A program made the translations under genes and the position numbers. Below are positions 14,183 to 19,050 of a stretch of DNA of 39,848 nucleotides, in pieces. How positions within the stretch are numbered: the stretch's first letter is position 1; each line of letters begins with the position of its first letter. Source of the DNA: Anaerolineales bacterium (lineage in GTDB: Bacteria > Chloroflexota > Anaerolineae > Anaerolineales > UBA11657); contig JAKUPR010000001.1 of assembly GCA_022450585.1 (NCBI GenBank), positions 1 to 39,848 of the forward strand. Direction: 5' to 3'. Below the pieces are notes generated by a model. That model was given only the letters and a program-made list of their open reading frames with translations. It was not told the DNA's origin and made no database searches.

Positions 14183-16945
14183 TTGAGTGAAACCTCACGT
14201 CCCGAATGCGCACAGCAAACACCGTGGTGGCCCAAAAGGCTAACGACAGGTGTCTCATTGCTTGGCATTGTTCTGATGCTGACAGGCTGCACGAATATTT
14301 TTAGATTGCCATCAGTCCCACTTTCTTCACCGTGTGAAGTTGCACAAGCAAAATCAACTGACCTTAACGGCGACTGGCTCTTTCGCATAGACCCAGATGA
14401 CATTGGTATATCAGAGCACTGGCACTCTTCTACAACCTCTGAGAATCAGTGGTTCAGCCTCGAACCCGGAACCCCTTGGGAGGCAAGTGGGCTGGAATAC
14501 GATGGTGTAGCATGGTATCGAACTAGGATTACCATCCCTGAATGGCCAAGTGTGTTTCTAGGGTTTGGAAGAATTGATGACGCCGCAATGCTCTGGATAA
14601 ACGGCAATCGTGTCGGCACCTGGGAAGACTTACTTGAGCAAGCAGTACTGATAGATATTCTAGAGTACGGCAAATCTGGCGAGGAGCTCCAACTTGCCTG
14701 GCGCATATCTGACCAAGGTGGATACGGAGGAATCAAACAACCAGTACGAATCGGTTCTAATCCTCGTACAGTGATGACCGGAGCGCAACACGTAGAGTGG
14801 ATGGCCAGACAAAACCCAGAGTGGCCGATGCCCGCATGGGCGAAAGGTCAACCTTTCGGCTGGACTATGACTGGAAACATGGATACGGCTGACGAAGCAT
14901 TGGTATCCTCAGATGGTGCAGTAGCACCATGGGCAAGAGCACCAAGAGTAGAAATATGGATCTACGATAATGACACCGGCACAATTGCGAGCGCGGACCC
15001 AACAAAAGTGCAATTCTCTTTGGTAAATGGCCGTCTACCCATGCCGCAATGGCAATGGGATGCACTTAACATAAATATCGAAAATACCATGTTTGGCGAC
15101 AGCAAACATTCCGCAATCCGCTGGAAAGTAACTTTGAAGAATACAGACTCAGGGTCCCGCCACCTAACCATGCTGCTTTCAATTAGGCCTTTTGCAATCA
15201 ATCAAAACATAACACCCATATGCTCGATTCGTGCAAGGCGCCACAGCCAACTATGGATTAATGACCTCCCATTCATGATAGCCGCAACACCGGCAAGTGA
15301 CACAGGCGCGGGGTTGTTACAAGAATCCATGGCGAAAGCATTGGTCGGCGAGGTGCCGTTCAATGACAGTGTGAGACATTTGGAAACAGCGGACGGGGTT
15401 GCCTTTTGGGCATATACTATTGACCTTAATCCCAGTGAATCAGCCCAGTTTCATTTCGCATTTCCCGCTACACCAGGCAATAAATTCCCACCTGTAGACA
15501 ACCCCATTGATGAACACATAAAAGAGACTGTCAAGTTATGGCAGAATGCCACAACTAAGGTCAAGATGACTATCCCTGACAAAGCATTAGAAGCTGGGGT
15601 AAACGCCTCTCTTGGGTACTTACTCCTATCTCTTGACCCTGACGGCCCCCACCCCGGACCATTAGCTCATGACGCCGTTTGGGTCCGAGACGCAGCATAC
15701 TCCGGGCTAGCACTGCTCCAATTTGGTCACACCGAAAGTGTCCGAAACACTGTCACAGCAACGCTAGCCACGCAAGAAACAGATGGACGAGTGCCTCCAA
15801 TACGAGGCAAGAACGTTCCATGGTACGATGATGAATGGGACTCGCAAGGACAGGTAATTTTTCTTGCTAGCACCTATTACCGTTTCAGTGGCGACAAAAT
15901 ACAACTGCGCGACTGGTATCCACATTTACGTAAAACCGCATATTACATTGCAGATCTTCGCACAAGGCCTAGCACAGTGGTGCGCACTGCGCATGGCCTC
16001 CTACCCCCAAGCAAAAGCGCAGAGGACCTCGGCCCGGCAGATTGGCACCACTATTGGGATAATTTCTGGGGAGTGTCTGGATTACAACACGCAGCGTACA
16101 TCGCCTCGGAATTAGGTGAAATCAATGATTCTAATTGGATGCAATCCGAAGCAAATGCGCTGCGTGAATCGATTCTAGACTCAGTCACAGCTGTAATGGG
16201 ACCCGAGCCAGCCTTCATCCCAGGAGCTGTAGAAAACAGCACAGATTCAGCCATGGCGCGAGGATCAGTCCCAGCTATCTGGCCGACCGAGGTGTTTCCT
16301 TTGGATATGCCACTCCTAACTCGCTCTTTTGACACATACTATCGCCTATGGCTTGAACCTAACGATGGCGGTTTTCGGCACCTGGGTGGACATTTTTGGC
16401 CTTACGGTGGACTAGATCTCGCCCACGCATACCTACGGCTAGGACGTAACGATGTACTCCATCAGATTCTTGGGTGGACAATGCGGCACGAAACCATACC
16501 AGGCACCTTCGCCTGGGCCGAACAAATCAACCCAACGAATGGAAGCTTTTCCGGAGGAGACATGCCACACGCCTGGGCATCATCTAATTTCATCACCCTC
16601 GTGCGCGAGATGCTTTTCTCCGAGCGCGGGGAAGCACTCAAGCTGCTAAGCGGCGTACCGGATTGGTGGTTGACGGATGGACGCACCATACAACTAGAGT
16701 CAATGCCCACATACTTCGGCAATTTTAATCTGCACACAGAAAACACGATCACACAATCAGACTCTGGGTGGAATGGTGACCTAATCATCACGCTATCGGG
16801 CGCAGCGCCGCCAGACGGTTTCCGCTGGAAATTCCCAGTTACGCCCACGAAATTATCTGGGCCACCTGGAACTAAAGTAGCGGATGGCTGGCTAATAGTA
16901 CCACCTGAAGCAGGAGTAGTGAAGCTAACTTTCACATCCCAATAA
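14183..16945 (+). CDS. Lipoprotein with GH2-like sugar-binding region and six-hairpin glycosidase-like domain
   Basis: 920 aa, TTG start after CGGGAAAG. A hydrophobic segment ends in the lipobox LTGC (Cys36), so it should be a lipid-anchored surface protein. Residues about 45-200 resemble the galactose-binding-like jelly roll of GH2 enzymes (WYRTRITIPEW, AMLWINGNRVGTWED, GGYGGIKQPV). After a beta-rich linker region, residues about 480-830 look like an (alpha/alpha)6 barrel: AHDAVWVRDAAYSGLALLQF near 495, WYDDEWDSQGQ, and WAEQINP...GDMPHAWASSNF near 777-800. That layout recalls GH15/GH63/GH94-type and alpha-L-rhamnosidase-like six-hairpin enzymes. The C-terminus is a small beta domain. Specificity and even activity are unknown. 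It follows the SH3b gene by 39 bp. Confidence 0.65.
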   Translation: MSETSRPECAQQTPWWPKRLTTGVSLLGIVLMLTGCTNIFRLPSVPLSSPCEVAQAKSTDLNGDWLFRIDPDDIGISEHWHSSTTSENQWFSLEPGTPWEASGLEYDGVAWYRTRITIPEWPSVFLGFGRIDDAAMLWINGNRVGTWEDLLEQAVLIDILEYGKSGEELQLAWRISDQGGYGGIKQPVRIGSNPRTVMTGAQHVEWMARQNPEWPMPAWAKGQPFGWTMTGNMDTADEALVSSDGAVAPWARAPRVEIWIYDNDTGTIASADPTKVQFSLVNGRLPMPQWQWDALNINIENTMFGDSKHSAIRWKVTLKNTDSGSRHLTMLLSIRPFAINQNITPICSIRARRHSQLWINDLPFMIAATPASDTGAGLLQESMAKALVGEVPFNDSVRHLETADGVAFWAYTIDLNPSESAQFHFAFPATPGNKFPPVDNPIDEHIKETVKLWQNATTKVKMTIPDKALEAGVNASLGYLLLSLDPDGPHPGPLAHDAVWVRDAAYSGLALLQFGHTESVRNTVTATLATQETDGRVPPIRGKNVPWYDDEWDSQGQVIFLASTYYRFSGDKIQLRDWYPHLRKTAYYIADLRTRPSTVVRTAHGLLPPSKSAEDLGPADWHHYWDNFWGVSGLQHAAYIASELGEINDSNWMQSEANALRESILDSVTAVMGPEPAFIPGAVENSTDSAMARGSVPAIWPTEVFPLDMPLLTRSFDTYYRLWLEPNDGGFRHLGGHFWPYGGLDLAHAYLRLGRNDVLHQILGWTMRHETIPGTFAWAEQINPTNGSFSGGDMPHAWASSNFITLVREMLFSERGEALKLLSGVPDWWLTDGRTIQLESMPTYFGNFNLHTENTITQSDSGWNGDLIITLSGAAPPDGFRWKFPVTPTKLSGPPGTKVADGWLIVPPEAGVVKLTFTSQ

Positions 16946-16964: not shown

Positions 16965-16993
16965 TTGACGACTTAAGCGGGCAGAGGTATAAT
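16965..16993 (+). promoter_or_regulatory. Strong sigma-70-type promoter of the S1-rpsU-infA transcript
   Basis: TTGACG at 16965-16970 and TATAAT at 16988-16993, separated by exactly 17 bp. Transcription should begin near 17000, leaving a leader of about 310 nt before the S1 gene. The -35 begins only 20 bp after the lipoprotein stop. Confidence 0.75.
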
Positions 16994-16999
16994 GCCAAC

Positions 17000-17262
17000 T
17001 TCAGTTACCAATTGAGATGACCGCATTACTTCAATCAGTCATACGGTCATACTGCTGAAGAGTGTTACAAAGCGTAAATAACAAGACTTGATGGTGGTGC
17101 CTGTGCCTAGCAACCAGTTACTCTACGGAGAATCGGTAGCCACAAACAGGATGGGTTTGAGCGGAGGAATGTTGGTTTAAGTTAACCTTGCCGTCACACT
17201 CCACATTCCGGATGCTAAACACATGTCGGCACCAGCGTCACTTGGGAGTGCCGACTTTTGCT
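17000..17262 (+). ncRNA. Structured leader RNA or small RNA upstream of the S1 gene
   Basis: This fills the 365-bp gap 16946-17310. Starting at the predicted transcript end, CTTCAG (16999-17004) pairs with CTGAAG (17055-17060), enclosing ATGACCG (17017-17023) with CGGTCAT (17044-17050). Next, CTC-TACG-GAG (17121-17130) forms a hairpin with a UNCG-type tetraloop, flanked by ACC/GGT pairing. GGAATGT (17166-17172) pairs with ACATTCC (17203-17209). The transcript would end at an intrinsic terminator at 17225-17259. TGGTGCC (17095-17101) can pair with GGCACCA (17228-17234), the terminator's left arm, so an antiterminated state is possible. No known riboswitch, 6S, tmRNA, SRP or RNase P signature was recognised. 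It may be an attenuator for ribosomal genes or a separate small RNA. Confidence 0.55.
17225..17259 (+). terminator. Intrinsic terminator in the S1 gene leader
   Basis: GTCGGCAC (17225-17232) pairs with GTGCCGAC (17248-17255), with an inner CCA/TGG pairing, followed directly by TTTT (17256-17259). It lies 51 bp before the S1 ATG, the usual place for a transcription attenuator. Confidence 0.65.
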
Positions 17263-17310
17263 TAAACTTAATGTCCTATTTCGTAGCATATTATTAGGAA
17301 GCGAGAATTG

Positions 17311-18540
17311 ATGGAAGAAACATCACCTGACAACACGCCTACAGAAGATTTCGCAACTCTGTTAGAAAACTATGTCGATGTGGTAAAACCGGCACACGGG
17401 GAATTACTGCACGGAACCGTAATTGACGCGCGGTCAGATGGGATTTTGGTGGATCTTGGATTAAAACGCGAAGGTTTAGTTCCCGTGTCAGACCTAGAAC
17501 GCGCTGGCAAAGGATTTCAGGATTACGCCACTGGAGATGATATTGAAGTACTGGTAACGGTCCAAGGACACGGAGCGAATAACCCCATCCTCTCAGTTTA
17601 TCAGGCACGCCAACATCAGGCATGGAGGGATGCAGAAGTGCTGATGAGTTCCGGAGAAATTTTCAATGGAACGGTCGAGAGTTACAATCGAGGCGGCATC
17701 GTTGTGTCCTATCAAGGTGTGCCCGGTTTCGTGCCCGCTTCACACGTTCTAGGTGTTACCCGCGGAATGCAGGAATTAGAGCGGAGAAAAACGCTGGAGC
17801 AAACAGTAGGACAGGAAATCGCAGTTCGGGTAATAGAGGTAGACCGACAACGCCACCGCTTAGTGCTTTCGCAGCGCGCTGCGCAGCGGGCATCACGTGA
17901 AAAGCAAAAAGAGGAGCTTCTCTCTGAATTACACGAAGGCCAAGTTATGCAAGGAAAGGTTAGCAGCGTGCGCGATTTCGGCGCATTTGTAGACCTTGGC
18001 GCAGCGGACGGTTTAGTCCATGTATCCGAGATTGCTTGGAAGCCAATTGAACACCCAAGTCATGTCTTAGAGTCAGGCGATGAAGTGGATGTAATGGTAA
18101 TAAAAATTGACCAAAAACGTCAGCGTATTGGCCTCAGTATCAAACAACTCCTGCCTAGCCCGTGGGATTCAGCACCTGATTGGATATCACCTGGAGAAAC
18201 AATGGTTGGACGGGTGACCCGCGTGCTGCACTTTGGCGCCTTCGTTGATCTAGGCAACGGCATTGAGGGACTCTTACATAATAGCGAAATCCCGGATGCA
18301 GGAGGTCCGGAAATAAACCCGGGCTCCGAACTTATGCTACGAGTTGTGAGTCTGGATGTTGACCGCCAGCGCGTCGGACTTAGTCTGCAGGAACTAGATG
18401 AGGACCAAATCGCGTCTAACGATGTCCCACCACTAATGAAATCCGACTCTTCCCAGGACGCGGGCGAGGTTCCTATGAATACTGCGTTAGATGAGGATGA
18501 CACAACCGAGGAATTGCCGGAGCCAAAAGGGGGTGATTGA
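17311..18540 (+). CDS. rpsA: S1 RNA-binding-domain protein, four repeats (ribosomal protein S1-like)
   Basis: 409 aa from the ATG at 17311; AGGAAG at 17296-17301 supports this or the TTG just before it. It has four S1/OB-fold repeats at about 35-105, 118-187, 208-278 and 293-362. Repeats 3 and 4 carry the classic VRDFGAFVDLG and VLHFGAFVDLG cores, repeats 1 and 2 are more divergent. The C-terminal 45 residues are acidic. Four-repeat S1 homologues are usual outside Proteobacteria, where they help ribosomes bind mRNA or act as general RNA-binding proteins. It leads a translation operon: the rpsU start overlaps its last codons, and infA follows. A structured leader with a terminator precedes it, suggesting attenuation or autoregulation. 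Confidence 0.85.
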   Translation: MEETSPDNTPTEDFATLLENYVDVVKPAHGELLHGTVIDARSDGILVDLGLKREGLVPVSDLERAGKGFQDYATGDDIEVLVTVQGHGANNPILSVYQARQHQAWRDAEVLMSSGEIFNGTVESYNRGGIVVSYQGVPGFVPASHVLGVTRGMQELERRKTLEQTVGQEIAVRVIEVDRQRHRLVLSQRAAQRASREKQKEELLSELHEGQVMQGKVSSVRDFGAFVDLGAADGLVHVSEIAWKPIEHPSHVLESGDEVDVMVIKIDQKRQRIGLSIKQLLPSPWDSAPDWISPGETMVGRVTRVLHFGAFVDLGNGIEGLLHNSEIPDAGGPEINPGSELMLRVVSLDVDRQRVGLSLQELDEDQIASNDVPPLMKSDSSQDAGEVPMNTALDEDDTTEELPEPKGGD

Positions 18541-18736
18541 TCTGACTAAAGTAACGATCAAGCACAACGAATCTCCTGAGGAACTCTTGCGCCGTTTCCG
18601 CAAAAAGGTTATGCGGAGTGGCAGATTGGCAGCGGCACGCCAGAAACGCTGGTTTGTTTCAAAAGCCGAAGTGCGCCGTATCGAGAAGAAGAAAGCCATT
18701 CGCCGCCTACGTCGTCGACACCGACCACGTAGATAA
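18533..18736 (+). CDS. rpsU: Ribosomal protein S21
   Basis: 67 aa. The small-subunit protein bS21 is recognised by VTIKHNESPEELLRRFRKKV and the Arg/Lys-rich tail ending RRHRPRR. The start is taken as GTG at 18533, which overlaps the end of the S1 gene by 8 bp and has GGAG about 10 nt upstream. Family members usually begin three residues later, at a codon that is CTG here, so the exact start is uncertain. Translation is probably coupled to the S1 gene. S21 sits near the anti-Shine-Dalgarno end of 16S rRNA, next to where S1 works, so the pairing with the S1 gene makes functional sense. Confidence 0.92.
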   Translation: MIDLTKVTIKHNESPEELLRRFRKKVMRSGRLAAARQKRWFVSKAEVRRIEKKKAIRRLRRRHRPRR

Positions 18737-18804: not shown

Positions 18805-19050
18805 ATGGCGGAAAAAGACGACAAGATTGAACTAGAGGGCACAATCTCTGAGGCTCTGCCTGGTACCCAGTTTCGTGTTGAACTGGATAATGGACACGAG
18901 GTCCTAGCATATTTATCTGGGAAAATGCGCCGATATTACATTCGTATTCTGCTAGGTGATCGTGTTAAGGTCGAAGTTACACCGTACGATCTTAAGCGAG
19001 GACGCATAATATACCGTTACCCGAGCGGAACCACACGACCGAATAAATAG
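18805..19050 (+). CDS. infA: Translation initiation factor IF-1
   Basis: 81 aa, a single OB-fold. Diagnostic segments are [40 protein letters not shown] and [13 protein letters not shown] followed by GRIIYRY. It binds the ribosomal A site and works with IF-2 and IF-3 during initiation. The 68-bp gap after rpsU contains no clear terminator, so it is likely the last gene of the S1-rpsU-infA transcript. The His of the common AHISGKMR motif is Tyr here (AYLSGKMR), a mild variation. Confidence 0.95.

Follow-up and report, generated by a model that had tools for sequence, protein, structure and literature searches.

The region from position 16,965 to 17,310 of the window, by which we mean the whole stretch of 39,848 nucleotides analysed here, can be read as the leader of a transcription attenuator that controls the S1-rpsU-infA operon and is most likely switched by free S1 protein in negative feedback. 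We assign this reading a probability of roughly two in three. Together with the layout found before S1 genes across the class Anaerolineae, the leader probably represents a switch, so far undescribed, that turns the production of translation-initiation proteins on and off.

The leader is the 5′ untranslated region of an operon with ribosomal-protein genes: a promoter lies upstream of it and three genes follow downstream, all on the forward strand. Specifically, the S1 gene (17311..18540, ATG at 17311) encodes ribosomal protein S1 with four S1 domains (Pfam S1, E 2e-58), rpsU (18491..18736, frame as listed, start codon provisional) encodes ribosomal protein S21 (Pfam Ribosomal_S21, E 1e-9), and infA (18805..19050) encodes initiation factor IF1 (Pfam eIF-1a, E 8e-26). 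The promoter, TTGACG-17-TATAAT at 16965..16993, matches at 11 of 12 positions and recurs with the same pattern and at the same place in five relatives; it is the near-perfect promoter described in the first-pass annotation. Transcription would start about 7 nt after 16993, and the leader measures approximately 260 nt from promoter to terminator. The intrinsic terminator that stands, by sequence, between the promoter and the first gene (17225..17259) is composed of GTCGGCAC (17225-17232), 15 nucleotides, GTGCCGAC (17248-17255) and TTTT (17256-17259); its last T lies 51 nt upstream of the S1 start codon, the distance originally given, and a simple scan misses it because the loop is long. No second promoter was found between terminator and S1 by a simple scan, so S1 transcription apparently needs readthrough, from either the leader promoter or one further upstream.

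Two observations concern the surroundings. Upstream of the leader, on the same strand, lies a gene for a 920-aa glycoside-hydrolase-like protein (14183-16945) with matches to Glyco_hydro_2_N and Bac_rhamnosid6H, both below cut-offs, and in relatives such as G001, G006 and G002 the leader likewise follows the 3′ end of this gene. A second, unlinked S1 homologue (L014, at G000:C47:11498-12427), 38% identical, has a TTGTCA-17-TATAAT promoter near the gene and no leader terminator; S1 paralogs resembling it occur in many relatives.

The left arm of the terminator has a second potential partner earlier in the RNA. TGGTGCC at 17095-17101 is indeed complementary to GGCACCA at 17228-17234, as had been noticed on first reading, and with one mismatch included the complementarity extends to GATGGTGGTGCC/GGCACCAGCGTC, which defines the putative antiterminator strand (17090..17101, forward strand). 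TGGTGCC/GGCACCA lies within the strongest duplex that the leader can form with the left arm of the terminator (300 shuffles, p = 0.01). In nascent-RNA partition functions the predicted left-arm partner is TGGTGGTG in the window and GGTGCC in G009 and G008; in G006 and G002 the predicted best partner differs from the GGTGC box, and the full nascent fold of G001 predicts another one. In the six family members the terminated state and the best alternative differ by 0-1.5 kcal/mol; elsewhere the gap reaches as much as 7 kcal/mol. To judge by sequence and predicted folding, the antiterminator would be mutually exclusive with the terminator.

In the proposed switch, the early strand GATGGTGGTGCC can pair with the left arm of the terminator, GGCACC(AGCGTC), which is made later; as long as this pairing lasts, the terminator would be blocked and the operon read (ON). 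If the early strand is instead occupied or remodelled, the terminator would form and transcription would stop about 50 nt before S1 (OFF). The antiterminator strand and the left arm are both transcribed ahead of the right arm, so that nascent RNA can, unassisted, form the antiterminator first; ON would be the default. A factor occupying the early strand would then cause termination, and negative feedback by an encoded protein fits this polarity: free S1 in excess would bind the leader and favour the terminator. Switching between the two states in the cell is our inference, as is the nature of the signal, an encoded protein and most likely free S1 in excess. Autoregulation by S1 appears the likeliest trigger since S1 is the product of the first gene, shows a loose sequence preference in binding single-stranded RNA, and is known to repress its own synthesis in gammaproteobacteria; a loose binder would also tolerate a drifting leader interior. 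The short terminated RNA would be a by-product.

To see how much of this arrangement is conserved we compared the window with five further S1 loci from genomes of the same family, spanning two genera in all. Each of the five has TTTGAC(G/T), a 17-base spacer, TATAATG, a leader and a terminator no more than about 60 nt from the start of the same gene. In the six-genome alignment 94.4% of the terminator cells are paired, compared with 20-61% in slid controls, and 92.9% of the antiterminator cells, compared with 29-67%. GGTGC is invariant, and its partner in six of six genomes is GC(A/G)(C/U)C of the terminator left arm. Terminator and antiterminator each contain one compensatory pair, a number that does not exceed the shuffle controls for six sequences; the covariation statistics are weak because the leader itself is shared by so few. 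A covariance model of the family leader found only these six loci with confidence among 121 genomes of the order, the named copies being in uncultured Anaerolineales MAGs such as UBA1136, UBA3499 and UBA3001. The leader is single-copy, and all six confident matches lie directly before the S1 gene, which is the consistent position before ribosomal-protein genes expected of a ribosomal-protein leader. The earlier suggestion of such a leader fits in position and gene content, but its protein trigger is inferred, and we assign the leader to that class provisionally. In the same family, the genomes G003, G005 and G007 of genus g3 gave no leader and no high-scoring S1 match (loss or an assembly gap is possible), G005 and G007 having an S1 paralog only. 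A DNA match in G012 proved spurious, its position being inside gyrB.

Between promoter and terminator much less is kept. The nested 5′ hairpin described earlier (16999..17060) folds as claimed through CTTCAG..CTGAAG and ATGACCG..CGGTCAT, but the sister species G001 has an unrelated hairpin in its place and genus g2 has none. The GGAATGT/ACATTCC helix around GGTTTAAGTTAACC (17166..17209, arms 17166-17172 and 17203-17209) is present in the window; G001 keeps part of it, and in genus g2 it was not found. The hairpin with the UNCG-type tetraloop fares better. This P2 hairpin (17110..17138) carries CUC-UACG-GAG at its tip (17121-17130), and a hairpin keeps its position in all six genomes though its sequence varies; G001 has CCC-GAU-GGG instead, so that the stem is preserved by paired change, and G009 has CUGU/ACAG for CUGC/GCAG. 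The interior helices named in the first-pass annotation are mostly lineage-specific. RNAalifold recovered only the terminator and a short GUGC/GCAC hairpin from the six sequences, and the folding energy of the whole leader is ordinary (z = -1.02; 31 of 200 shuffles do equally well), so stability would not be a sufficient argument by itself.

Instead of to free S1, the attenuator could respond to S21, to IF1 or to how well ribosomes initiate on a short leader frame, which we regard as improbable. In favour of it, all three operon genes act in translation initiation. An ATG-started frame of 29 codons (MVVPVPSNQLLYGESVATNRMGLSGGMLV, 17091-17180) does lie over the antiterminator strand, its first codons holding that strand, and G001 has a frame of the same length with the same stop; in genus g2 a Shine-Dalgarno-like AAAGGAG stands just before GGTGC. 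However, as a leader peptide the frame has to be rejected: the differences between G000 and G001 number 7, 8 and 9 by codon position, without third-position bias or any other coding signature. Moreover, genus g2 shares no start codon, and by eye no such frame was seen in the leaders of other families.

A metabolite-binding riboswitch of unknown class controlling the terminator is much less likely. Aptamer-like hairpins do stand upstream of a switchable terminator and no known riboswitch, T-box or other Rfam family matched: a covariance search of the leader yielded no hit, either at the curated threshold or with E relaxed to 10, in keeping with the original impression that no known class was recognisable, and 14 related loci likewise gave no Rfam match. 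But the genes under control are translation genes with no metabolite logic, and the interior is conserved in one family only, unlike that of known aptamers; this lack of conservation beyond the family weakens the suggestion of an unknown riboswitch.

We can also ask how far the layout extends beyond the family. For the class survey, which covered Anaerolineae alone within Chloroflexota, an alignment of S1 proteins served as the search and the DNA upstream was then read. An S1 gene of the leader-bearing type is often linked to infA and usually has a near-consensus promoter and a terminator-bearing leader. Specifically, among 103 non-identical high-scoring S1 loci, 86 show a promoter of the TTGAC type, located 150-640 nt ahead of the conserved portion of S1, and 66 of these 86 leaders contain a terminator (a hairpin plus TTTT with an energy of -11 kcal/mol or lower), as against 10-25 in five dinucleotide-shuffled sets. 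About a quarter of the promoter-bearing leaders have no terminator by the scan used. Lower-scoring S1 paralogs show a promoter in 1 of 25 cases and a terminator in the last 300 nt in 2 of 25. The interiors vary between families, and the leaders of other families are not recognised by the covariance model of the family leader, so that leaders outside the family are linked to it by position, promoter and terminator and not by sequence. The strongest duplex between leader and terminator arm, compared with shuffled leaders, reaches p < 0.05 in 9 of 60 leaders and a p below or about 0.1 in 17 of 60; the window ranks second (p = 0.01). The combined value (Fisher chi2 186, 120 df) is indicative only, as the 60 leaders are related and their p values not independent. 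At the level of sequence, the promoter, terminator and complementarity are conserved, and across the class most S1 genes of this type have the layout upstream.

The class-wide layout also speaks to the proposal that the region is a stand-alone small RNA gene, with a promoter and terminator of its own, placed before S1 by chance. A strong promoter and a terminator do enclose about 260 nt, but throughout the class the layout stays with the S1 locus, and it is the interior that varies. We give this free-standing small RNA very little weight, since the simple scan found no second promoter before S1 and every confident copy adjoins that gene. The genome's 6S RNA, moreover, lies elsewhere, on contig C108, and the leader has no match to RF00013.

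Complementary boxes occur independently in another group of Anaerolineae. In 18 leaders of other families the predicted 5′ end of the RNA carries a box, GCYGRGT, that can pair with ACUCGGC in the terminator arm, with 88% of positions paired as opposed to 16-49% when slid. Four of 10 box columns are at least 90% conserved, compared with 2 of 99 other leader columns, and in nascent-RNA partition functions the same boxes are the predicted left-arm partners in most such leaders. Re-dealing partners among the 18 related leaders does not separate true from exchanged pairs (183 of 2000), so this pairing amounts to conserved complementarity and not to proven covariation. In the leaders L132, L134-L136, L139-L143 and L146-L154 of this other group the antiterminator box GGCTGAG sits at, or close to, the beginning of the predicted transcript, so that the choice of start site or 5′ slippage could itself control termination. 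Separately, CACCTC, which is the anti-Shine-Dalgarno core of 16S rRNA, occurs in both the L020 and the L021 leader downstream of ATGAGATAAT and may mimic the 3′ end of 16S rRNA. A constitutive partial terminator that merely sets a basal level is the least probable explanation: near-isoenergetic states could give a fixed partial readthrough and no sensor is conserved across families, but a fixed terminator would not need the complementary box that two unrelated leader types have kept separately. With conservation in the family, the layout across the class and these boxes in an unrelated group, the attenuator with an antiterminator that had been suggested for the window is supported.

A broader and more speculative version of the attenuator, which we consider unlikely, is that throughout the class it senses translation-initiation capacity, the operon being switched by whether ribosomes or free S1 occupy the antiterminator strand, with no ligand-specific aptamer. 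Selection would then act on the antiterminator/terminator pair only and the interior would drift freely. On the main reading, a transcription attenuator standing before the S1(-S21)-IF1 locus in many members of this large and mostly uncultured class would be a new route to balancing translation-initiation proteins. A switch logic that is conserved without a conserved sensor sequence would also explain why covariance-based surveys miss such leaders.

Several known systems offer comparisons. Antitermination at the 5′ end, of the type found at pyrG in B. subtilis, is a lead only: it resembles the other Anaerolineae group, where the antiterminator box forms the first few nucleotides of the predicted transcript, and differs from the window, where the antiterminator strand lies about 90 nt into the transcript. 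In the open-access literature, to which the search was confined, we found neither an S1 attenuator nor a Chloroflexi S1 leader. The catalogue of ribosomal leaders by Eckert and Weinberg 2020 (PMC7247131) contains 20 new motifs, none for S1 or from Chloroflexi; like them, the present leader is structured and consistently precedes ribosomal-protein genes, but those motifs are backed by significant covariation, for which six sequences are too few. The B. subtilis rplJL leader, where L10(L12)4 acts by transcription attenuation (PMC10931766), differs in genes and sequence, and the parts described for the window's leader include no third, anti-antiterminator structure and no kink-turn, but both are long leaders of ribosomal-protein operons with an antiterminator and an intrinsic terminator as alternatives. 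In gammaproteobacteria, rpsA is autogenously regulated by S1 at the initiation region (PMC10931766). That control is translational, unlike the visible device here, which is a transcription terminator, but the two share the S1 gene, a leader region upstream of it and, as proposed here, negative feedback.
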